Below are positions 3 through 57,436 of a DNA stretch of 64,000 nt, one piece after another. Each line of letters begins with the position of its first letter. Position 1 is the stretch's first letter. The notes beneath the pieces are model-generated. The model saw only the letters and a list, made by a program, of their open reading frames with translations, was not told where the DNA came from and did no database searches. Origin of the DNA: Fimbriimonas ginsengisoli Gsoil 348. Its GTDB lineage: Bacteria > Armatimonadota > Fimbriimonadia > Fimbriimonadales > Fimbriimonadaceae. A program made the translations under genes and the position numbers. Location of the stretch: NCBI RefSeq assembly GCF_000724625.1, contig NZ_CP007139.1, positions 1,612,001 to 1,676,000 of the forward strand, read 5' to 3'.

Positions 3-2237
3 GTGCTAAGAGAGAACCGGCCGATTCCTACCATCCTCGACCTCGACGTGAAGAGTGGCGTAGTGGCCGCGCCGCTGGTCTCGTACGGTTTCTGCGACTA
101 CCGGCTGGCGGGGCACGTGCGGTTCTCCCATGACGCGTCAATGGTCAGGCCGACGCCGTGGGAGCTGACGCTCCGCTCTCAGATCCGGCTTGACGCGGAT
201 GCGACGCCCGGTTCACCCGTCAGCGCGGCATCCAATTACATGTGGGCCCGGTACGGACACGCGAACTTCGGCAAGATCCTGCCTCAGACGATGCCGTTCG
301 CCGATTACGCCCGCCTCTGCTATCCGGCCGCGTTTCATGAGAAAGACACCGGCGGGTGGTTCGAGCACGACCTGAACGGCCATATCGTGGGCGGCCTCCC
401 GAGTGGCTGGGGGCTCGGAGAAGGTTGGGTGAGCTATCAGTGCTGGTTCAACCAGCTTCGCTCCGCTTGGGGGCTCCACTGGTGGGGAAAGCGGCTGGGG
501 GAGAAAGACTGGGTCGACAAGTCCGAGAAGATGCTGAACCTGGCGCTCGCCGCGCCGGGTCGGGGCGTGAGTCCGACCACTTACATGTCGCGGACGAAGA
601 CGTGGAAGGGCTCGCTCGTCTCACCCTCGTCAGAGTGCTACTACGACATTCCAAGCCTTGCTTGGAAGGGAATCTGGTTCCTGCGCTGGTTAAAGTTCGA
701 CGATTGTCCACACAGGGCGGAAGTGGAAAAGCGGGTGAAGGATATCCACAACCTGATGCTACGCGTTCAGCGCGCAGACGGCTCGTTCCCAAGTTGGTTG
801 ACGAGAGATCTGAAGGTCGTGCCCCTTCTGGATCGCTCGGCTCAGTCTGCCCTGCCCGCATGGTTCCTCAGCGAAGTTGTCGACTTCGAAATTGGACGGC
901 TCATCGAGCAGGCAAGGAGTGAGAAATCGAAGTCCGCTAATGGCCTTTCTGATGTTTACGTTGGCGCCCATGAGTCGGAACAATTAGAAGATGAATGCGA
1001 GCACGTGATTCGGGCCTCTACTTTCATTTACTCACAGGTCATTCCAAAGCATCTTTACTACGATTTCGAAACGTTCTTTTCCTGCTCCCCAAAAACATGT
1101 TTGCAAGCAGGGGGGATCATCGATGACCCTCGTATGTGGGACCCACATTCTTGGCAGCCTCCCCAAAATAACCTTTCGATGCAGTGGTCCGCGGAGGCGC
1201 TATTCCGGGCAAAGAGTTTTAGCGAACCTTATTTGAATTGCCTCTTGGGGGAAAAAGCGAAATATGTAGGAGGGTCGGTGGCACGTTCGCCGTTCTCGGC
1301 CTTGGCGATGACCGCCCTCGACACGATGAACCTCTACCAAACCGTCTGGCCGATCTCATACCGGAAGGTGGCCTACACGTACGGCGGGTTTGGAGTTCAG
1401 AACTCTGACGGCGAATACAACGACGCAAGACAGTCGCAGTTTGGCGCAACCCTCTGCGACTTCGGCGCCCAGCTAGATCGCCGAGATCTGTTTGAGCGCG
1501 GCGTCGCCGCCGTCCGCGCCTCTCTGACTCTGGTGAACAACCCGAACGATCCTTTCCACCTGTATCCAAACCCGAACTACCCGGTCGGACTAGAACCGGA
1601 GAACGACGGGCACGGCGGGACGGACGAGCAAAACGGGCGATCCGGGTTCGACTGGGCGGAGGGATCGGGTCTGGCGGGAGCCGCCGAGCTCCTCGACAAG
1701 TACGGCGAGATCTATCACGGCAACGGGTGGAGCGTCAAGATCGACGCGGTGCCCACAAAACCGGTTTCCCCCGCTCCACTCGTCGATCCGAGCTTTAGCT
1801 TCACGGACTGGAGAATGCCGGGTTGGGAAATCGAAGGGACGTTCCTGCACTGGCCTACGCAGTCCAAACGACGGAATTTCGGTTCGCGCTATGTTCCGCC
1901 TGGCGGCGGTGAAGTGCGAATACTGCCATTCATCGGTACTGCCGAGGACGGGCGCGGGGGGTTCGATGACACCTACACCGGCACGATGACCTCACCTAGG
2001 TTCTGCACGAAGCGAGGCGAGATCACACTGTTGGTCGGCGGCGGAAGCGGGAAAGATGTCGGGGTCGAGCTTCTTGACGATGAAGGAAAACAGGTGCAAC
2101 TCGCTCATGGCGGTAGTGACGAGATGATGCACTGGGTGACTTGGAAGGTCTCCGGATCGGGACCTTACCGGATCCGGATTTTCGATCGCGAGACAGGACC
2201 TTGGGGGCATATCAACGTGGGGTTTATCCAGACGTAG
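3..2237 (+). CDS. Putative secreted glycan-active protein, 5' partial
   Basis: The reading frame is open to the window edge, so the true start and any signal peptide probably lie upstream. The visible ~744 residues are rich in Trp, Tyr and Gly. An internal region (about residues 110-300) has stretches such as GLGEGWVSYQCWFNQL and RVQRADGSFPSWL that resemble the alpha/alpha barrel of six-hairpin glycosidases and polysaccharide lyases. The C-terminal ~150 residues look like a beta-sandwich of the kind that binds carbohydrate. No catalytic motif was recognised with certainty. It converges with a GH99-like glycoside hydrolase (14 bp 3' overlap), which fits a polysaccharide-degradation setting. 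The function is inferred from fold-like features and context only. Confidence 0.6.
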   Translation: MLRENRPIPTILDLDVKSGVVAAPLVSYGFCDYRLAGHVRFSHDASMVRPTPWELTLRSQIRLDADATPGSPVSAASNYMWARYGHANFGKILPQTMPFADYARLCYPAAFHEKDTGGWFEHDLNGHIVGGLPSGWGLGEGWVSYQCWFNQLRSAWGLHWWGKRLGEKDWVDKSEKMLNLALAAPGRGVSPTTYMSRTKTWKGSLVSPSSECYYDIPSLAWKGIWFLRWLKFDDCPHRAEVEKRVKDIHNLMLRVQRADGSFPSWLTRDLKVVPLLDRSAQSALPAWFLSEVVDFEIGRLIEQARSEKSKSANGLSDVYVGAHESEQLEDECEHVIRASTFIYSQVIPKHLYYDFETFFSCSPKTCLQAGGIIDDPRMWDPHSWQPPQNNLSMQWSAEALFRAKSFSEPYLNCLLGEKAKYVGGSVARSPFSALAMTALDTMNLYQTVWPISYRKVAYTYGGFGVQNSDGEYNDARQSQFGATLCDFGAQLDRRDLFERGVAAVRASLTLVNNPNDPFHLYPNPNYPVGLEPENDGHGGTDEQNGRSGFDWAEGSGLAGAAELLDKYGEIYHGNGWSVKIDAVPTKPVSPAPLVDPSFSFTDWRMPGWEIEGTFLHWPTQSKRRNFGSRYVPPGGGEVRILPFIGTAEDGRGGFDDTYTGTMTSPRFCTKRGEITLLVGGGSGKDVGVELLDDEGKQVQLAHGGSDEMMHWVTWKVSGSGPYRIRIFDRETGPWGHINVGFIQT

Positions 2238-3384
2238 CTTGGGCCAGGTTGGAATCTTTCTCGTACTGGTCGAGCGCCCTTCGCGCTTCGGTTAGCCGGT
2301 CTCTAAAGAGCATCTCCGATATCTTGGCAAGCTTTGCGTCGGCCGGATGCTTCTTTTGGAGCCGGTAGAGGCGGATCGGGAGGCGCAGGTCGGCGGCCCG
2401 GTAACGGCTGCGGTGAAGCCGCTGCGTGGTTTCGAGATCTCGATAGCCGAACTCGGCCGACGGCTCGATCATCGTTCCCTCCCCCCAGTCGTTCCATGTC
2501 GCGATTTGCGCGAACGGCGCCTTGCGGCTAAGGGCGTCCTTCAAGGTTCGCTCGTAGGTCGCGCCGTTCTGGTCGTCGATATTCCCCCAGGAGTCGTGAA
2601 TGCCGGCGTCTTTGTAGAAGTCGCGAAATCGCGGATAAGCGGCCGGGATGACGGCCGGCCAATCTTTGGCCCTATCGTAGAATGCGGCTCGTTCTTTCTG
2701 GCTCCCCTCCCATCCACCAGCCGGCAGCGGCCAGTCGTAGGCGCCGATCGCCGGTCCGCGTCGGTGGTGAAGCGTGAAAAGCGCCGGCTGAGGCGAGAGC
2801 CCTTCGAACAGAGAAGACCAATCTTCCGGCTTGTAATATTGAGGCCCGAACACGAGCAGCACCGGCTTGCCGTCGAGCTTCAGGTACGAGGGGGAACGAA
2901 ACCAGTGCTCCTGCAGCCACCGCATGAGCAGCTTGCCCTGGTCTACCGCTTGCTCCTTTTGGAACTTGCCAAATTTGATCAGGTTCGGCACGGTTTGATC
3001 CTCGTAAACGAGCGAGAACTTGAGCCCCGCCTTCTTGACCGCCGCGAACATTCGCTCTGTGTTTCGATGGTTGATCGCGTAGTCGTAAACGTTGAGGTTG
3101 CCGTACCAGTCGACGAAAACCCCATCGATCCCGGCGAATTTCAGCAGCAATGCGTGACACTCCAGCGCCTGCGGGTCGCCGGAGTCGTACAGCCCCATGA
3201 GCGGGTAGAAGTGGCTAGCCGCGGGCCGGCGTCCGTTTTGCTCCTTGTCTGGGTCGAGCTTCCCCATCGTCCAGTGCCACCCCCACTCCCGGCTTTCCGG
3301 CTTCGCCCCGTACCAAGGCATGTAGTGCGCCAACAACAGTGGCTTCGCCGGGGTGGTGAGAAGCGCCAAAACGGGGAAAAGCAT
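2224..3384 (-). CDS. Glycoside hydrolase family 99/71-like protein, secreted
   Basis: This 386-residue protein begins with a short hydrophobic leader (MLFPVLALLTTPAKP), so it is probably exported. A Met 7 codons upstream is possible, but this start puts the leader at the N-terminus. The N-terminal LAHYMPWYG, the GIDGVFVDWYG strand and the ATWNDWGEGTMIEPS segment are typical of GH99/GH71-like TIM barrels, which include endo-alpha-mannanases and related glucanases. The Asp and Glu of NDWGEG are the likely active-site acids by family analogy. The substrate cannot be told from sequence. Its 3' end overlaps the convergent plus-strand gene by 14 bp. No operon partner is visible. Confidence 0.72.
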   Translation of the reverse strand: MLFPVLALLTTPAKPLLLAHYMPWYGAKPESREWGWHWTMGKLDPDKEQNGRRPAASHFYPLMGLYDSGDPQALECHALLLKFAGIDGVFVDWYGNLNVYDYAINHRNTERMFAAVKKAGLKFSLVYEDQTVPNLIKFGKFQKEQAVDQGKLLMRWLQEHWFRSPSYLKLDGKPVLLVFGPQYYKPEDWSSLFEGLSPQPALFTLHHRRGPAIGAYDWPLPAGGWEGSQKERAAFYDRAKDWPAVIPAAYPRFRDFYKDAGIHDSWGNIDDQNGATYERTLKDALSRKAPFAQIATWNDWGEGTMIEPSAEFGYRDLETTQRLHRSRYRAADLRLPIRLYRLQKKHPADAKLAKISEMLFRDRLTEARRALDQYEKDSNLAQATSG

Positions 3385-3466
3385 GGCCGGAGTATCGTCC
3401 CTCACCGCTTCTTCCGGGGGCCGAACGGTATCGCGCCCGTCCAGCAGCCCCGTAGGAAGGGTATAG

Positions 3467-3511
3467 ACCGCTCTATATGAAGCGGTTTATATAAGGTGAG
3501 TATATCACCTT
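3467..3511. promoter_or_regulatory. Two adjacent inverted repeats upstream of MFS gene (candidate operators)
   Basis: Two dyads lie 60-100 bp before the start codon at 3569. The first is ACCGCT (3467-3472) with AGCGGT (3481-3486). The second is AAGGTGA (3493-3499), spacer GTATA, TCACCTT (3505-3511). They sit in a locally AT-rich patch that also contains TATATA-like sequence. This is typical placement for a TetR/PadR/GntR-type repressor of an efflux gene, but no regulator gene is adjacent. Confidence 0.4.
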
Positions 3512-3568
3512 CCGCGGCTCGCCACTAACTGCTAATCGCCAACGCCCCGATGCTATTCTCTAGGGTTC

Positions 3569-4813
3569 ATGAGTCCCACCCCCGAAACCCGCGATCCGTA
3601 CGCGGCGTTGCGGTTTCGCGATGTCCGGATGCTCATCGCCTCTGCGGCCCTTTCCGGGCTTGCCGGGCGTGGTTTGGCGGTAGTGATCGGCTTCCAGGTC
3701 TACGCCATCACCAAAGATCCGCTGGCGCTGGGGTTCCTGGGGTTGGTGGAGGCGATTCCGGCATTATCGCTGGTGCTGTACGGTGGGCATGTCGCGGACA
3801 ACCGAGACCGGCGGATGCTGGTCCTGTTAACCGGAACCGTTTCGGTCCTGTGCGCGCTGGCCTTTGCCGCGCTCTCATGGTGGATCGCCAAGCCGCCGGT
3901 TCTGGCTCTGTACGGAATCGTATTTGTGGCGGGAATCGCACGCGGTTTCGCTAACCCAGCCGGATCGGCATTCGAAGCCCAGGTTGTCCCGCGCGAAGTC
4001 TATGTCAACGCCTCCGCTTGGTCGAGCAGCGTCTGGCAGATGTCCGCGATCGCGGGACCGATGATGGCGGGTTTCGCCTTCGCCGGACTCGGGCCGGCCA
4101 GGACGTACCTCATCATCGCGGGTCTACAGATTCTTAGCTGGGGATGCGTCTACCAGGTCGCGAAGCGTCCGATTCCGGAGTCGCAGCCGCATGAATCGGT
4201 GTGGCTCAGCATTCGTGAGGGAATCCATTTTGTGGTCCACAACCAGTCGCTGGTCGGCTCGATGGCGCTGGATCTGTTCGCCGTCTTTTTCGGTGGGGCC
4301 ATTGCACTTCTGCCGATCTTTGCGACCGACATCCTGAAAGTCGGGCCGCAAGGGTTCGGGTTCCTGAACGCGGCGCCCTCCGTCGGCGCGCTTCTCGTGA
4401 TGCTCTGGACCACCCGGCACCCGCCGGTAAAGCGGGCTGGAGTCAACCTCTTGCTTTCCGTCGGGGCGTTTGGAATCTCGATGATCGTATTCGGCGTCTC
4501 GAAAAACTTCTATCTCTCGCTCTTAGCCTTGGCCGCAAGCGGCGGTTTCGACGGAGTAAATATGGTGATCCGGGGAGTGATCCTGCGGATGCTCACGCCG
4601 GAGCATCTGCGCGGACGGGTCGCCGCCGTGAGCTGGGTCTTCATCGGATCATCTAACGAGCTGGGCGCCATGGAGAGCGGAATTTTCGCCCGGCTGATGG
4701 GCACGGCTCGCTCGGTATGGGCGGGAGGTGTGCTGACCCTCTTGGTCGTCGCAGCAACGGCAAAGCTGGCGCCGGAGCTACGACGACTGTCCTTCGAGCC
4801 GAAAGAAGTGTAA
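3569..4813 (+). CDS. MFS transporter, EntS/DHA3-like
   Basis: This is a 414-residue polytopic membrane protein with about 12 hydrophobic segments. The N-terminal RDPYAALRFRDVRML followed by a loop ADNRDRRML after TM2 is the signature of the EntS/MefA-type (DHA3) branch of the major facilitator superfamily. A second-half loop, MLTPEHLRGRVAAVSWVF, is also typical. Members export siderophores, macrolides or other small molecules by proton antiport. The substrate cannot be predicted. The ATG at 3569 directly precedes the first amphipathic segment. Two palindromes upstream suggest local repression. A hairpin repeat begins at the stop codon and may end the transcript. Confidence 0.85.
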   Translation: MSPTPETRDPYAALRFRDVRMLIASAALSGLAGRGLAVVIGFQVYAITKDPLALGFLGLVEAIPALSLVLYGGHVADNRDRRMLVLLTGTVSVLCALAFAALSWWIAKPPVLALYGIVFVAGIARGFANPAGSAFEAQVVPREVYVNASAWSSSVWQMSAIAGPMMAGFAFAGLGPARTYLIIAGLQILSWGCVYQVAKRPIPESQPHESVWLSIREGIHFVVHNQSLVGSMALDLFAVFFGGAIALLPIFATDILKVGPQGFGFLNAAPSVGALLVMLWTTRHPPVKRAGVNLLLSVGAFGISMIVFGVSKNFYLSLLALAASGGFDGVNMVIRGVILRMLTPEHLRGRVAAVSWVFIGSSNELGAMESGIFARLMGTARSVWAGGVLTLLVVAATAKLAPELRRLSFEPKEV

Positions 4814-4972
4814 GGTGGCACGGGCTTCCAGCCCGTGTGTATCACGACCATCCTGGTCGTGTACACGTAGCATCGGCTCCCAGCTGATGAACCCCACGAC
4901 CATTCTGGTCGTGAAAGAACGCCACGGGCAGGATGCCCTTGGAACCCACTGGCTGGAAGCCAGTGCCACGGG
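4814..4972. repeat. Compound array of short hairpin modules between convergent genes
   Basis: Several short inverted repeats follow one another: CACGGGC-TTCCA-GCCCGTG, CACGACCA-TCC-TGGTCGTG, CATCGGCT-CCC-AGCTGATG, a second CACGACCA/TGGTCGTG pair, GGGCA-GGA-TGCCC and CACTGGCT-GGA-AGCCAGTG. Closely similar arrays occur at 46900-47003 and, inverted, at 63303-63352. It fills the gap between two convergent genes and could act as a bidirectional terminator or mRNA-stabilising element. The family is unnamed here. Confidence 0.8.
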
Positions 4973-6454
4973 CTACTCCCTGATCGTCCCGGCTGGCGCC
5001 TTCGGCGCGATCGCCTCGCGGTAGAAACCGGCGAGATCGTCGTGCAGCTTACGGCGGCTGGGAGTGTCGAGGTACATCATGTGGCCGGCCGGGTAGTAGC
5101 CGCGGTGGATGTTCGACTTGAGTCGCGGATCGAGCTCCATCTGGTTGATCGACTGCTCGACGGTACCGAGCGGACACGCGAAGTCGTAGTATCCCATCGC
5201 CACAAAGAGCTTGGTGTACGGGTTCTGGTGAAGCGCGTTCCGGAGCGACTCGCTGGTATCGAGCGCGCCGGAGCCAAAATTCCAGGAGTCGGTGAGCCCC
5301 TCCCCAAGCACGTAGTATTTGAGGTCGCTCTTAAAGCCAAGCTCGCCCCGAACGTAGTCGTTCATGCAGGAGACGAACGGGGGCGTGATGGCGCTGTTGG
5401 CCGCGTCGAAGTCCGGACCGGCGTCCGACCAAAGCCGGTCGAGGCCAACAAAGCGGGCATCGAGGCGACCAACGCTGTAGTGGTCGGCGCGTCGCAGCTC
5501 CTTGTAGAAGCTGTTGTCGCGGATGCGCAAATTCGTGTTCTCTAGATACGTTTCGCTGAGGCCGGTGTACCGCTGGAGCTTCTGGCGGATCGCCTTTCGT
5601 TTGTCTGGCGAAAGAGTATCGCCGCGGGTCAGCGCGGGCAGATACTCGTCGTAAACCCACGCTTGAACCTCCTTCACTACCTCGCCGACCGGCTTCTTTT
5701 CCAGATCCGCGGGAAGCTTGTGGTGGTACCAGGCGGCGGCGGAATAGGTGGGGAGGTAGAAAGCATACGGCTGATCGTTCGCCTTGCTGAAGTCGGCGGT
5801 GTTTCCGTTCAGGTATGGCGAAACCAAAATGAGGCCGTTGAGGCCGATTCCGTTGCCGTTCAGCCACTCGGCGAGACCAGCGCCTCGGATCCCTCCGTAG
5901 CTTTCTCCCAGGACGAAGACCGGCGAAAGCCACCGCTGCTCCTCCGTCAGATACATCCGGATGAACTCGCCGACGCTCCGGATATCTTCCTGCACGCCCC
6001 AGAATTTCTTTCCGTACTCCGGCTTCTCCGGCCGGCTGTAGCCGGTGCCCACCGGGTCGATCATGACAAGGTCCGTCTCCGGCAATAGCGATTCGTCGTT
6101 CGCCACCAGCTCATAAGGGGGCGGCGGCATCATCCCATCTGGCTCCATCTTCACGCGTTTGGGGCCGACGAACCCCAGATGTAGCCAGAGCGATGCCGAG
6201 CCGGGTCCTCCGTTGAAAACGAACGTCACCGGCCGCTTCGCGCCGCTCTCTTTCACCCGGTAAGCCGTGAAGAAAATCCGCCCTTCCGTCTCGCCTTGAT
6301 TGTTCCGAATCGGCATCGACCCCGCGGTAGTGGTGTAACTAAGCGCCTTACCGGCAAGAGTCGCGCTATGTTCGCGGCGAACCCAATTGGAGTCGACCGC
6401 CGGTGCGGCCGGAGTTTGAGCAAGAGCAAGGAGAGCGAGGAGCGGGACGGGCAT
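4973..6454 (-). CDS. Serine carboxypeptidase (peptidase family S10), secreted
   Basis: This 493-residue protein has an N-terminal hydrophobic signal (PVPLLALLALAQ). It shows the alpha/beta-hydrolase layout of S10 peptidases: NGGPGS at 81-86 (oxyanion region), GESYGG with nucleophile Ser185, YYDFACP with Asp424 and PAGHMMY with His458. The Ser/Asp/His order and spacing match the family. It should remove C-terminal residues from peptides in the periplasm or outside the cell, probably for peptide scavenging. Bacterial S10 proteins are common in Acidobacteria- and Planctomycetes-like soil bacteria. It is monocistronic as far as can be seen, with hairpin repeats on both sides. Confidence 0.9.
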   Translation of the reverse strand: MPVPLLALLALAQTPAAPAVDSNWVRREHSATLAGKALSYTTTAGSMPIRNNQGETEGRIFFTAYRVKESGAKRPVTFVFNGGPGSASLWLHLGFVGPKRVKMEPDGMMPPPPYELVANDESLLPETDLVMIDPVGTGYSRPEKPEYGKKFWGVQEDIRSVGEFIRMYLTEEQRWLSPVFVLGESYGGIRGAGLAEWLNGNGIGLNGLILVSPYLNGNTADFSKANDQPYAFYLPTYSAAAWYHHKLPADLEKKPVGEVVKEVQAWVYDEYLPALTRGDTLSPDKRKAIRQKLQRYTGLSETYLENTNLRIRDNSFYKELRRADHYSVGRLDARFVGLDRLWSDAGPDFDAANSAITPPFVSCMNDYVRGELGFKSDLKYYVLGEGLTDSWNFGSGALDTSESLRNALHQNPYTKLFVAMGYYDFACPLGTVEQSINQMELDPRLKSNIHRGYYPAGHMMYLDTPSRRKLHDDLAGFYREAIAPKAPAGTIRE

Positions 6455-53651: not shown

Positions 53652-53982
53652 CACGAGAGGTGAGCCGATCAAGTCCAGCTAGAGTCTTTTGACGCCGTTT
53701 CGACGCACCCGATCTGCTGCACTCTTGAGCCCTCGCCGCCATCTCGCGGCCGTCCTGCCCAGAATTCCGATATCCACCCGAGGACGCAGGCAACGCCTTT
53801 CGCATTGAGCGAGTCAAATCTCGTTCCATGGCGGCTTCTTGCCGGACGGGGAGGGACCGATAACAAGGGACAGCCTTTCGGACTCGATTCGTTCTTCGAC
53901 AAATATCCCTCGTTCGCGGGAATAAATCGATGGCGTGCCGTGTCTTGCACATGCCCCGGAACCGGGGATCAAGGAGCAAGGG

Positions 53983-55197
53983 ATGGACGTTCAAGGATTA
54001 CTCGACGAAGACGGCATCGATCGCCGTGGCTTTCTCAAGTGCATGGCATGGGCCGGGACAGGGATGCTGTTCACCGTCCAAGGTGGAATTCTGAAATCTC
54101 AGCCGCTAATGTCGCTGTTCGGGAGCGACCCCGAGGCGGAGGCGGCAATTCGGAAGGCGACCTTTAGCTTCGTTCAGATCAGCGACAGTCATATCGGCTT
54201 CAGCAAGCAAGCGAATAAGGATGTGGTCGGAACGTTGCAGGCGGCGGTCGAGCGGATCAATCTCGGTCCCGCGCCGGATTTGCTTCTCCACACCGGCGAC
54301 CTCAGCCACCTTTCAAAGCCCGAGGAGTTCGACACCCTCGATCAGGTGCTTAAGGGCGTGCGAACCACCGACCGATTCTTCGTCCCGGGCGAGCACGACG
54401 TTCTCGAAGATGGAGGGAAGCTTTTCCGGGAGCGGTACGGCAGACAGGCGAAGGGGGAAGGATGGTACAGCTTCGACCACAAGGGCGTACACTTTGTGGC
54501 GCTGGTCAACGTTCTCAACCTTAAAGCCGGGGGCTTCGGAAGTTTAGGAGAGGAGCAGCTTTCCTGGCTTCGCGACGACGTGCGCAACTTGCGTAGCAGC
54601 ACGCCGATCGTCGTTTTCGCGCACGTTCCGCTTTGGACGGTGTATCCGGAATGGGGATGGGGAACCGACGATGGCGGCCGCGCGCTAGAGATATTGAAGC
54701 GCTTCGGCTCGGTCACCGTGCTCAATGGGCATATCCACCAGACGATGCAGAAAGTCGAGGGGAACGTCACCTTCCATACCGCGATGTCTACCGCCTTCCC
54801 GCAACCGAAGCCAGGAAGCGCGCCCTCCCCGGGGCCGATGACGGTGCCGGCCGGAGAGTTGAAGGGTCTCCTCGGCGTCACCACGGTTCAGTACCGACAG
54901 GGGCAATCGAGCCTGGCGATCGTGGACAGTTCGCTCGCGGCGGCGGGCCAAGATCAAAAAGTCTCCATCGATAACTTCAGCTTTTCCCCCGCGACGCTAA
55001 CCGTCGAGCGCGGAACTCGAGTTACGTGGACGAATCGAGACGATATTCCTCACACGGTGGTCGACCAAAAGGGCGGATTTAAGTCGAAGGTGTTGGACAC
55101 CAACGACTCTTATTCGCACACGTTCGACCGGGCTGGGGAGGTCGCCTATTTCTGTTCGATTCACCCGCATATGACCGGGAAGGTGATCGTCCACTGA
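53983..55197 (+). CDS. TAT-exported metallophosphoesterase fused to a cupredoxin domain
   Basis: This is a 404-residue protein with start at ATG 53983 behind AAGGAG. The N-terminal DRRGFLKCMAWAGTGMLF is a twin-arginine signal. The phosphoesterase (about 45-300) has QISDSHIGF, HTGDLSH, PGEHDVLED, AHVPLWT and LNGHIHQ. The N of the usual GNHD is replaced by E (GEHD), an atypical metal ligand. The C-terminal ~90 residues form a cupredoxin: WTNRDDIPHTVV (His), then YFCSIHPHMTGKVIVH with Cys, His and Met ligands for a type 1 copper site. Gap 53652-53982 upstream shows no gene. It heads an apparent operon with a sigma and anti-sigma gene. Confidence 0.9.
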   Translation: MDVQGLLDEDGIDRRGFLKCMAWAGTGMLFTVQGGILKSQPLMSLFGSDPEAEAAIRKATFSFVQISDSHIGFSKQANKDVVGTLQAAVERINLGPAPDLLLHTGDLSHLSKPEEFDTLDQVLKGVRTTDRFFVPGEHDVLEDGGKLFRERYGRQAKGEGWYSFDHKGVHFVALVNVLNLKAGGFGSLGEEQLSWLRDDVRNLRSSTPIVVFAHVPLWTVYPEWGWGTDDGGRALEILKRFGSVTVLNGHIHQTMQKVEGNVTFHTAMSTAFPQPKPGSAPSPGPMTVPAGELKGLLGVTTVQYRQGQSSLAIVDSSLAAAGQDQKVSIDNFSFSPATLTVERGTRVTWTNRDDIPHTVVDQKGGFKSKVLDTNDSYSHTFDRAGEVAYFCSIHPHMTGKVIVH

Positions 55198-55221
55198 GGG
55201 AGTCGATGACAAGGAGACCGC

Positions 55222-55746
55222 TTGTTTAGGCGGTCGGAAGCGGAACGGTATCGAGAGATCGTAGACCCAAATCTCGACGCCGCCTACGGGCTCGCCTTCT
55301 GGCTGTTGAACGACCATCACGACGCTGAGGATGCCGTGCAAAGCGCGGCCCTTAGCGCCTACCAGCACCTTGGGCAACTCCGAGGCGAGGATGGGCGGCG
55401 CTGGTTTCTTAAGATCGTCCGGAACACATGTATGAACGAGATCCGCAGACAGGCATCGCGAAGCCGATTCGAGGTCGATGTCGACACCGACGTCGCCGAT
55501 CCGTCGTCAGGCGACGCCGAGGCGGTGGTCCTCCTTCGGTACGACGCGGAGAGGCTGCGTAAGGCGATCGAGTCGTTGCCGCCACCCTTGCGCGAGGTGA
55601 TCGTTCTGCGCGAGTTCGAGGAGATGACGTACCGCGACATCGCCGAGATCACGGGAACGGTCGCCGGCACGGTGATGTCCCGGCTCTCGCGAGCCCGGAA
55701 CCGGCTTCTCGGCCTGCTCCAAGATGAGGTGATCCATGACCTGTAA
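55222..55746 (+). CDS. ECF-type RNA polymerase sigma factor
   Basis: This is a 174-residue sigma factor with region 2 (about 18-80: AYGLAFWLLNDHHDAEDAVQSAALSA) and region 4 (about 113-165: LPPPLREVIVLREFEEMTYRDIAEITGTVAGTVMSRLSRARNRLL). It starts at TTG 55222 behind AAGGAG, 24 bp after the phosphoesterase-cupredoxin gene, and its stop overlaps the ATG of the anti-sigma gene (ATGAC). By analogy the sigma factor may respond to periplasmic copper, redox or phosphate stress sensed by the anti-sigma factor; this is inference. Confidence 0.9.
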   Translation: MFRRSEAERYREIVDPNLDAAYGLAFWLLNDHHDAEDAVQSAALSAYQHLGQLRGEDGRRWFLKIVRNTCMNEIRRQASRSRFEVDVDTDVADPSSGDAEAVVLLRYDAERLRKAIESLPPPLREVIVLREFEEMTYRDIAEITGTVAGTVMSRLSRARNRLLGLLQDEVIHDL

Positions 55747-56446
55747 CGACGCCAAATCTCATCTCAGCGCCTATCTCGACGGTGAGTTGGACGCCGCCAG
55801 CACAAGTCAAGTGCGCGGCCACTTAGCCGACTGCGAAGGCTGCAGGATGGAGCAAGCACGGTTGGAGGGGCTGATCGGCGCGATCCGCACCCAGGTCCCC
55901 CGGCCGGTCGCATCCGGCACACTTCGAGCGAGGGTAGCTCCCCAGCCTCGAAAGAACCCTATCTGGCTGACCGCCGGGGGCTCGCTGGCTCTTGGACTGG
56001 CGCTTGGCGTGGCCCTCATGTGGCCTCGTCGAACCGACGATGCTTTGGTTGCCAGCCTAGTGGATGGCCACGTTCGGTCGCTCATGGCGAGCCACCTGTT
56101 CGACGTTGCCTCGACGGATCGGCACACCGTGAAACCGTGGTTTCTTGGCAAGATCGACTTCGCACCGGCCGTCCCCGACTTGGCGCGAGATGGTTTTCCG
56201 TTAATCGGCGGTCGGCTCGATTACCTGGGCGGACGTCCTGCCGCAGGCCTGGTCTACCGGCGAAACGCCCACATCATCAACGTATTCGCCCTCCCCCACT
56301 CGCCGGCTACCCCGCCGCCCTCGTCGGTGAGAGGGTTTCACTTGGCAATGTGGCGGTTAGGGGATGTCGATTATTGGGCGGTATCGGACGTGGAAGCGAG
56401 CGAACTGGCGACCTTCGCGAAGCGATTTGAGGCTTCGGCCCGATAG
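55736..56446 (+). CDS. Membrane-bound anti-sigma factor with zinc-finger (zf-HC2) domain
   Basis: This is a 236-residue protein whose N-terminus has the zf-HC2 pattern (MTCNDAKSHLSAYLDGEL, then HLADCEGCRME: H-x3-C-x2-C). A TM helix follows (about 85-102, GGSLALGLALGVALMW). The ~130-residue periplasmic part contains PWFLGKIDFAPAVPDL and LDYLGGRPAAGLVYR, which resemble family anti-sigma sensor domains. It overlaps the sigma factor gene, so the pair is probably co-translated. The signal that releases the sigma factor is unknown. Confidence 0.88.
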   Translation: MTCNDAKSHLSAYLDGELDAASTSQVRGHLADCEGCRMEQARLEGLIGAIRTQVPRPVASGTLRARVAPQPRKNPIWLTAGGSLALGLALGVALMWPRRTDDALVASLVDGHVRSLMASHLFDVASTDRHTVKPWFLGKIDFAPAVPDLARDGFPLIGGRLDYLGGRPAAGLVYRRNAHIINVFALPHSPATPPPSSVRGFHLAMWRLGDVDYWAVSDVEASELATFAKRFEASAR

Positions 56447-56500: not shown

Positions 56501-57436
56501 CTAGGCAAGGGGCGGTACGGAGCGGGTTCCGGCCAAACCCATCAGAGCGGCGATGCGCGCCTCGACGTCCGGGTGGGTACTCAGCAGATCGTTCGTGTGG
56601 ATCAGCTTAAGCGGGTTCACGATGTACATGTGCTGGGTAGCTCGATTGGCCACTTGCAGCGGGTCCGGATCGGAGGCGATCTTGCGCAACGCCCGCGCAA
56701 GCCCCTCTGGGTAGCGCGTCAGCTCCGCGGCCGAGGCATCCGCGAGATACTCCCGCTTTCGGCTGACCGCCAGCTCGAGGAGACCGGCAAAAATCGGGGC
56801 GACGATCGAGAGGACGAAGCCGACGATCATGAATATCGACGCCAGCGAGTTGTCGTCCCGATCGCGATCGCGCCGGCTTCCGCCGCCGAACCACTGCATG
56901 CGAACGAACAAATCGGCCAACAACGGGATCAGCCCGGCGACGACCGTGACGGTCGTCATAAATTTGATGTCGTCGTTCCGAATATGCGACATCTCATGGG
57001 CCATGACCCCCTGCAACTCGTCGCGATCCAGCTTTTGAAGCAAGCCGGTGGTAACCGCGATCGACGCTTCCTCGGGGTTTCGCCCGGTTGCGAACGCGTT
57101 GGGCGACGCGTCGTCGATCACGTACACCTTTGGCTTGGGGATCCCCGCCGCGATCGCCATTTCTTCGACCACGTTGTTCAGAACCTGATCTTCCGCTTGA
57201 GTGGCTTCCCGCGCCCGTGAAATGCTCAAGATGATGTTCGAGCCGGAGCGGTTGGAGACCCACGCCATGATCAGGCCGAGCAAAGCCGCGCCTCCGGCGC
57301 CCAGATACCATTGGCGCGGCGCGTAAGTCCCGGCGATCGCCGCGCCGAGCGCGGTTAGCAGGACGATGATGATGAACGCGAGCAGAATGCTGCCGCGACG
57401 GTTCGCCTGAATCTGCTCCTGCAGCGTCTTCTTCAT
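56501..57436 (-). CDS. htpX: Protease HtpX homologue (M48B)
   Basis: This is a 311-residue membrane zinc protease. Two N-terminal TM helices (IIIVLLTALGAAIAG and LGAGGAALLGLIMAWVS) precede the conserved ASPNAFATGR and the zinc motif HEMSH (147-151). Further hydrophobic segments and REYLADASAAELT, containing the third ligand Glu, follow. HtpX degrades damaged membrane proteins alongside FtsH. A charged DRDRDD loop in the middle is lineage-specific. No regulator is adjacent. Confidence 0.93.
   Translation of the reverse strand: MKKTLQEQIQANRRGSILLAFIIIVLLTALGAAIAGTYAPRQWYLGAGGAALLGLIMAWVSNRSGSNIILSISRAREATQAEDQVLNNVVEEMAIAAGIPKPKVYVIDDASPNAFATGRNPEEASIAVTTGLLQKLDRDELQGVMAHEMSHIRNDDIKFMTTVTVVAGLIPLLADLFVRMQWFGGGSRRDRDRDDNSLASIFMIVGFVLSIVAPIFAGLLELAVSRKREYLADASAAELTRYPEGLARALRKIASDPDPLQVANRATQHMYIVNPLKLIHTNDLLSTHPDVEARIAALMGLAGTRSVPPLA

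Follow-up and report, generated by a model that had tools for sequence, protein, structure and literature searches.

Why should a gene for a probably exported phosphoesterase with a copper-type domain at its C-terminus be followed directly by genes for a sigma factor and an anti-sigma factor; is copper the signal that such a switch reads, or is it part of what the switch produces? The question is raised by three forward-strand genes that fill positions 53983-56446 of a 64,000-nucleotide stretch of Fimbriimonas ginsengisoli Gsoil 348 (contig NZ_CP007139.1, positions 1,612,001 to 1,676,000, in a genome of one contig and 5,231,762 bases), the whole of which we call the window. They encode a metallophosphoesterase (MPE) fused to a cupredoxin, an extracytoplasmic function (ECF) sigma factor and a zf-HC2 anti-sigma factor. 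An earlier note on this DNA had read them as a copper- or redox-responsive circuit. We favour a self-amplifying envelope-response operon, with an ECF factor, its anti-sigma factor and an exported MPE-cupredoxin as product, and put the probability of this reading at about 0.55. The operon is laid out as follows.

53918-53945, +: ECF26-type promoter, GGGAATA (53918-53924) and GTCT (53942-53945); pattern scan and published consensus
53971-53976, +: ribosome-binding site AAGGAG of the MPE gene; read from sequence
53983-55197, +: MPE-cupredoxin fusion, twin-arginine (Tat) type, 404 amino acids; open reading frame (ORF) and Pfam domains
54022-54066, +: twin-arginine signal core RRGFLKCMAWAGTGM, residues 14-28; read from sequence
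54166-54741, +: phosphoesterase domain, residues 62-253; Pfam, profile alignment and fold match
54391-54393, +: Glu137 of GEHD, in place of a metal-ligand Asn; alignment
54949-55194, +: amicyanin-like cupredoxin domain, residues 323-404, with His357, Cys391, His394 and Met397; Pfam, alignment and fold
55222-55746, +: ECF sigma factor, 174 amino acids, TTG start; Sigma70_r2 and Sigma70_r4_2
55736-56446, +: zf-HC2 membrane anti-sigma factor, 236 amino acids; ORF, Pfam and structure model
55742-55846, +: zf-HC2 domain, residues 3-37; PF13490, E 3.9e-12
56138-56443, +: RseB/MucB-C-like periplasmic domain, residues 135-236; fold only

Gene order and promoter

What we establish directly is a set of domains, a conserved gene order and a promoter element. 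The survey of gene order in related genomes that the earlier note had called for places ECF and anti-sigma genes both beside the MPE gene in 47 of the 53 loci whose flanks reach 2.5 kb or more on each side; the hosts of the module are Armatimonadota, Acidobacteriota, Gemmatimonadota, Verrucomicrobiota and Alphaproteobacteria, and the genes occur in different orientations among loci. A wider scan of genome contigs gave at least 540 confirmed relatives, of which the best 80 were kept for locus analysis; these are not a fair sample, having matched the peptide pattern FLKCMAW or WGWGTDD under a ranking that favours full coverage. A duplicate (L029, the same as L011) and a locus with only a fragment (L015) were left out, and the tally then covers 84 loci, the window among them; 70 of these have the ECF gene and 67 the anti-sigma gene, many contigs being short. 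All four parts are present on a Caballeronia plasmid (L099). Within the phylum, sampled as 201 Armatimonadota genomes at a threshold of E<=1e-30, six genomes have an MPE match: besides the window there are four loci with an intact MPE, all four of which carry ECF and anti-sigma, and the sixth match is a 150-amino-acid fragment.

Upstream of the window MPE gene, at 53918-53945, stands GGGAATAAATCGATGGCGTGCCGTGTCT, to which the promoter of the SMc01418-rpoE1 operon is close (PMC6180224; papers are cited here by such numbers and from excerpts). The ECF26 sigma factors of S. meliloti read a -35 GGAATA and a -10 GT (PMC6180224), and a -35 GGAAT with a -10 CGTC has also been reported for ECF26 (PMC6527743). 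GGAATA occurs in 71 of 79 MPE upstream regions and the full element, GGAATA-N15-19-GT[CTA], in 67, a count that is not blind because the -10 part was relaxed after sites had been viewed; the chance level in 200 first-order resamplings is 0.6 on average and 3 at most. The spacing between -35 and -10 is 17 nucleotides in 55 regions and 16 in 12. ECF upstream regions hold GGAATA in 38 of 71 cases, mostly where the ECF gene is divergent. That the window MPE gene and so many of its relatives have a promoter of ECF26 type upstream is new in this analysis; because the count so exceeds the number expected, the ECF factor probably drives its own operon. The MPE ORF runs from ATG 53983, with AAGGAG upstream, to a stop at 55197, while its alternative start, GTG 53935, would fall inside the promoter, and the anti-sigma gene overlaps the ECF gene by 11 bases.

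On a tree of 78 ECF rows, MPE-linked factors group largely by host phylum, and the window ECF joins those of three further Armatimonadota on a branch with support 94/85 that is not starred. ECFs from loci without an MPE lie among the alphaproteobacterial MPE-linked ones. An ECF and an anti-sigma of this kind also stand on six alphaproteobacterial plasmid stretches (L106-L111) that contain no MPE; in L106, L107 and L109 a GGAATA/GTC site lies a short distance upstream of the ECF gene. The switch may therefore serve other outputs.

The enzyme and its copper partner

What would such an operon make? The domain reading of the earlier note, a phosphoesterase with a C-terminal cupredoxin and a complete His/Cys/His/Met set, in one run with an ECF factor and a membrane zf-HC2 anti-sigma factor, is borne out by the ORFs and by Pfam: Metallophos (PF00149) covers residues 62-253 of the fusion at E 1.2e-13, over the cut-off, and Copper-bind covers residues 326-403 at E 1.6e-10 (Cupredoxin_1, E 2.3e-10), with the type 1 ligands His357, Cys391, His394 and Met397 read from the sequence. 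Its observation of GEHD in place of GNHD also stands and turns out to describe a family: Glu137 aligns, in a profile alignment, with the Asn of GNHD in GpdQ, and GEHD is found in 83 of 83 MPE proteins and GNHD in none. GEHD is kept as well in a 22-row alignment that includes Streptomyces, Mycobacteroides, Burkholderia and Caballeronia members. The metal motifs DSH, GD and GHxHQ are just as constant, and [AG]HxP is present in 82 of the 83. In the AlphaFold model of the fusion (mean pLDDT, the predicted local distance difference test, 76.4; residues 1-25, 70-76, 268-287 and 300-321 below 50), the MPE part matches GpdQ with Z 15.2 over 203 residues at 3.2 Å. Judged by these motifs and this modelled fold, the protein is a calcineurin-like metallophosphoesterase in which the Asn ligand is a Glu, and an altered set of metal ligands is plausible. 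With the class III-type MPEs GpdQ of Enterobacter aerogenes and Rv0805 it shares the fold over about 190-205 residues (Z 13-15) and the dimetal motifs; unlike them it has a Tat-type signal, GEHD, a WGWGTDD stretch and a cupredoxin that is fused or paired.

Export is predicted from the twin-arginine motif RRGFLK at residues 14-19. For a signal peptide, the core RR-x3-L-x-C-M-x-W varies unusually little, and C20, M21 and W23 are invariant in 68 rows; in two actinobacterial MPE proteins the Cys is replaced. We do not use this conservation as evidence, because finding loci by FLKCMAW or WGWGTDD biases the sample towards it.

PH...C-x2-H-x2-M is kept in 78 of the 80 cupredoxins of the loci; an unknown base interrupts the ORF of one of the other two, and a contig end cuts off the second. 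The corresponding part of the model matches cupredoxins over some 80 residues with Z 12.5-15.9 in the rows shown, best against the N. maritimus cupredoxin (15.9) and at about 14 against amicyanin. Amicyanin and the N. maritimus purple cupredoxin share its fold and C-x2-H-x2-M loop, and differ in that the cupredoxin of the module is fused to an MPE or encoded beside one. By ligands and modelled fold the domain is of the type 1 copper kind, and copper binding is predicted. Such a complete type 1 site, with C-x2-H-x2-M, is what electron carriers typically have, and we consider it more likely that the copper in the product serves electron transfer than that it serves as a signal.

The two domains need not share a chain. 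Across the 84 loci the cupredoxin is fused in 29, encoded by a separate adjacent gene in 52 and not adjacent in 3. To place the fused and split states on an 87-row tree of MPE domains takes 7 changes, where shuffled labels take 23.6 on average, and starred branches force at least 3 of the 7; the same pair has therefore been joined or separated several times. Many split loci have the two ORFs in one frame, parted by nothing but a stop codon, and stop-codon readthrough from MPE into cupredoxin was therefore considered. It was rejected: all three stop codons (TAA, TAG, TGA) occur there, a signal-like N-terminus of its own is seen by eye in most cupredoxin ORFs, and ranking on one tblastn segment gives same-frame pairs an advantage. 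The gene order is cupredoxin first and MPE second in Streptomyces and Mycobacteroides.

Other loci also have redox neighbours. The BLAST cluster represented by DUF2231 occurs in 27 of the 84 loci and that represented by DUF420 in 15, DUF2231 is joined to a cytochrome c in L014, and L013 has c-type cytochrome ORFs. These membrane proteins may be electron partners of the module; beside the window operon itself, Pfam searches of ten window genes saw no DUF2231-, DUF420- or cytochrome-type redox gene.

L093 7359-7817, L014 4778-5611, L034 7198-7716: DUF2231 / DUF420 membrane proteins near the module

The anti-sigma factor

What kind of signal might the switch read? The anti-sigma factor has one hydrophobic segment near residues 75-97 (by eye) between its zinc finger and its C-terminal part, an HTVKPW-like motif is found in 61 of 67 anti-sigmas, and in an alignment of 30 of them most of the best-conserved columns fall in the C-terminal half. 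The model (pLDDT 89.3) draws RseB/MucB proteins at all of Foldseek ranks 1-9 (E 6e-3 to 3e-2); its C-terminal part superimposes on RseB residues 218-315 (VIA Z 8.4, 94 residues, 2.9 Å), and towards the N-terminus the matches are RslA (Z 7.0) and ChrR (Z 4.2). In modelled fold, then, the periplasmic domain resembles the C-terminal domain of RseB/MucB, a regulator of envelope stress; we do not file it as a member of that family, because its Z lies near the noise level. Like RseA-RseB and MucA-MucB, the system has a cytoplasmic anti-sigma part, one membrane segment and an RseB-C-like periplasmic fold; unlike them, it holds all of this in one chain, with a small RseB-like domain only and a zf-HC2 N-terminus, and no sequence match to MucB_RseB_C was found. 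RseB binds RseA, and cleavage of RseA needs that contact to be disrupted, a step for which lipopolysaccharide has been proposed (PMC8103513). The layout of ECF26 anti-sigma partners, with an N-terminal anti-sigma domain, a membrane segment and a periplasmic C-terminal domain, is found here too; EcfR6 of S. meliloti gives no match to the anti-sigma profile of the module.

A proposed circuit

From these parts we infer export, proteolysis, electron transfer, the hydrolysis of an exported phosphoester and the signal itself. At rest, the ECF factor would be held by a single-pass anti-sigma factor whose cytoplasmic zf-HC2 domain and RseB/MucB-C-like periplasmic domain share one chain. An envelope signal would act on the periplasmic domain and probably lead to loss of the anti-sigma factor by proteolysis, and the freed ECF factor would read the GGAATA/GTCT promoter at 53918-53945 and transcribe the operon, including its own gene and that of its inhibitor; in other words, positive feedback with a built-in brake. 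The product would be a dimetal phosphoesterase of the GpdQ kind, exported by Tat and joined to a type 1 copper domain, whose most likely role would be to bring electrons to the enzyme or the respiratory chain or to take them from there. The copper domain would belong to the product and not to the sensor. On the side of the switch, an anti-sigma factor that contains an RseB-like domain would amount to a single-chain version of the envelope-stress sensor.

A bolder version of this proposal, which we think doubtful, is that Glu137 makes the dimetal site a carboxylate-bridged redox centre in electron exchange with the type 1 copper of the same protein. A phosphoesterase fold would then deliver electrons to the respiratory chain, or depend on electrons to remain active, and the inhibitor of its ECF factor would be an RseA-RseB-like chimera. 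If true, copper/dimetal electron exchange would be an unusual link from phosphoester chemistry to respiration.

A number of observations weigh against the envelope-response operon. Our first promoter pattern, GGAAT[AT]-N14-18-CGTNT, matched just 4 of 86 MPE upstream regions; the relaxed -10 part was chosen with listed sites in view, the -35 part being the published one; and the promoter-bearing loci share ancestry. The stricter GGGAATA-N16-18-GTCT has 3 matches in the window genome, one of them the promoter at 53918, and its reversed control also has 3; with this pattern a regulon beyond the operon is neither seen nor excluded in that genome. The likeness to RseB is one of fold alone (Foldseek E 6e-3), an unrelated T. 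maritima protein scores Z 8.1 where RseB scores 8.4, a search of the window genome with PF17188 (MucB_RseB_C) finds nothing at E<=1, and for 30 anti-sigmas the 25 listed families out of 29 do not include it. Three of the 84 loci (L013, L070, L089) have no adjacent cupredoxin, six of the 53 well-flanked loci (L028, L030, L031, L041, L044, L079) lack ECF, anti-sigma or both, actinobacterial relatives come without an ECF of this kind, and none of the 8 same-genus genomes listed has an MPE match. Finally, transcription, binding and activity of the module are predictions from sequence and models.

Relation to known systems

The nearest worked example is RpoE4 of S. meliloti, which drives sorT, a cytochrome c and the pseudoazurin azu2 from an ECF26-type promoter (PMC6180224, PMC3511301). 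The RpoE4-EcfR4/sorT-sorU-azu2 system resembles the module in having an ECF factor with a single-pass anti-sigma factor, a GGAATA/-10 GT promoter and an exported enzyme as product, accompanied there by cytochrome c and cupredoxin; it differs in that its enzyme is a sulfite dehydrogenase rather than an MPE and its cupredoxin is a separate pseudoazurin. The module may then be viewed as an ECF-controlled exported redox enzyme system with another enzyme. Bacillus subtilis SigM/UpsH offers an MPE under an ECF factor in envelope stress, with the difference that UpsH faces the cytoplasm and that the excerpted text describes no copper domain for it (PMC11898649). Bradyrhizobium EcfQ/EcfF was considered as a model and dropped, the excerpts of PMC3420878 making no mention of phosphoesterase or copper.

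Each part taken singly belongs to a known kind. The literature searched does not describe them together: an MPE whose ligand motif has an invariant Glu, a type 1 copper domain fused to it or paired with it, an ECF26-type circuit and an RseB-like anti-sigma factor. We found no publication on the MPE-cupredoxin-ECF module or on GEHD metallophosphoesterases in a search outside which most subscription journals lie. Within it, what joins metallophosphoesterase and cupredoxin is on plant proteins, the excerpts of PMC8999054 and PMC10880074 give nothing on the module, and those of the F. ginsengisoli genome paper (PMC4072686) mention sigma factors and copper, neither in connection with this locus. 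Kept in at least five phyla, the operon is a defined one: sequence suffices to name its enzyme, its copper partner, its promoter and its switch, which makes it possible to test directly what a widespread pair of MPE and cupredoxin does.

Alternative readings

Could the switch sense copper after all? The copper- or redox-responsive sigma circuit of the earlier note stands as far as the linked circuit is concerned, in gene order and ECF26-type promoter; the copper or redox response is not supported, because the periplasmic domain of the anti-sigma factor is RseB/MucB-like in fold. On that account, which we regard as unlikely, the cupredoxin or the zinc finger would sense copper or redox state and pass the signal to the anti-sigma factor. 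The complete type 1 ligand set, the redox neighbours in other loci and one plasmid MPE beside annotated chromate resistance genes would agree with it, as would HxxxCxxC in the window zinc finger and in 58 of 67 anti-sigmas. Against it stand the RseB-like fold on the sensor side, the loci in which the MPE has no adjacent cupredoxin, and the 9 of 67 anti-sigmas without HxxxCxxC, which match the profile all the same (L036, L049, L051, L054, L057, L058, L064, L078, L094). A link of the cupredoxin to sensing is not supported, nothing having been found for it or against it.

Just as unlikely, in our estimate, is a response to sulfite or a related oxyanion of the RpoE4 kind, in which the MPE would process a sulfur or sulfo-ester compound and the cupredoxin would take up the electrons. 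It has in its favour a promoter type common to sulfite-responsive ECF26 sigma factors and a sulfite oxidase-type molybdopterin oxidoreductase near the MPE pair in Mycobacteroides. It must contend with the ten genes about the window module, among which no sulfite oxidase gene was recognised, with the fact that not every S. meliloti ECF26 sigma factor responds to sulfite (PMC3511301), and with a sequence comparison that places the ECF factor neither inside ECF26 nor outside it: S. meliloti RpoE6, the sole documented ECF26 compared, has a long branch and scores 94 bits to the ECF profile against 104 for another ECF of the window genome.

We give still less credence to copper handling, in which the cupredoxin would store copper or hand it over and the MPE would be a copper enzyme or would mature another cuproprotein. 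Paired exported proteins and the DUF420 genes would suit that role; the complete site of the electron-carrier type counts against it, as does the lack of a copper transporter family among the neighbour representatives (ten proteins).

That the genes are chance neighbours without a functional link is hardly credible: the six incomplete loci and the absence from listed same-genus genomes point that way, against the retention of both regulators in 47 of 53 loci across five phyla and several orientations and the recurrence of the promoter element.

Other neighbours

In the stretch 46-5918 of the Burkholderia vietnamiensis plasmid pBVIE03 (L098), where the ECF, anti-sigma and cupredoxin of the module were not found, an MPE of this family lies near annotated chromate resistance/transport genes and a cytochrome c assembly protein. 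No ORF of more than 150 amino acids in L011, L016, L017 or L018 (the last with a short downstream flank) contains HExxH; in the window, the next gene downstream encodes an HtpX-like M48 protease (56501-57436, -), convergent with the operon. On the Mycobacteroides abscessus plasmid (L097, 787-6181), cupredoxin and MPE stand in a run with a molybdopterin oxidoreductase and a distant ECF, and a Rieske protein gene comes directly after that ECF.

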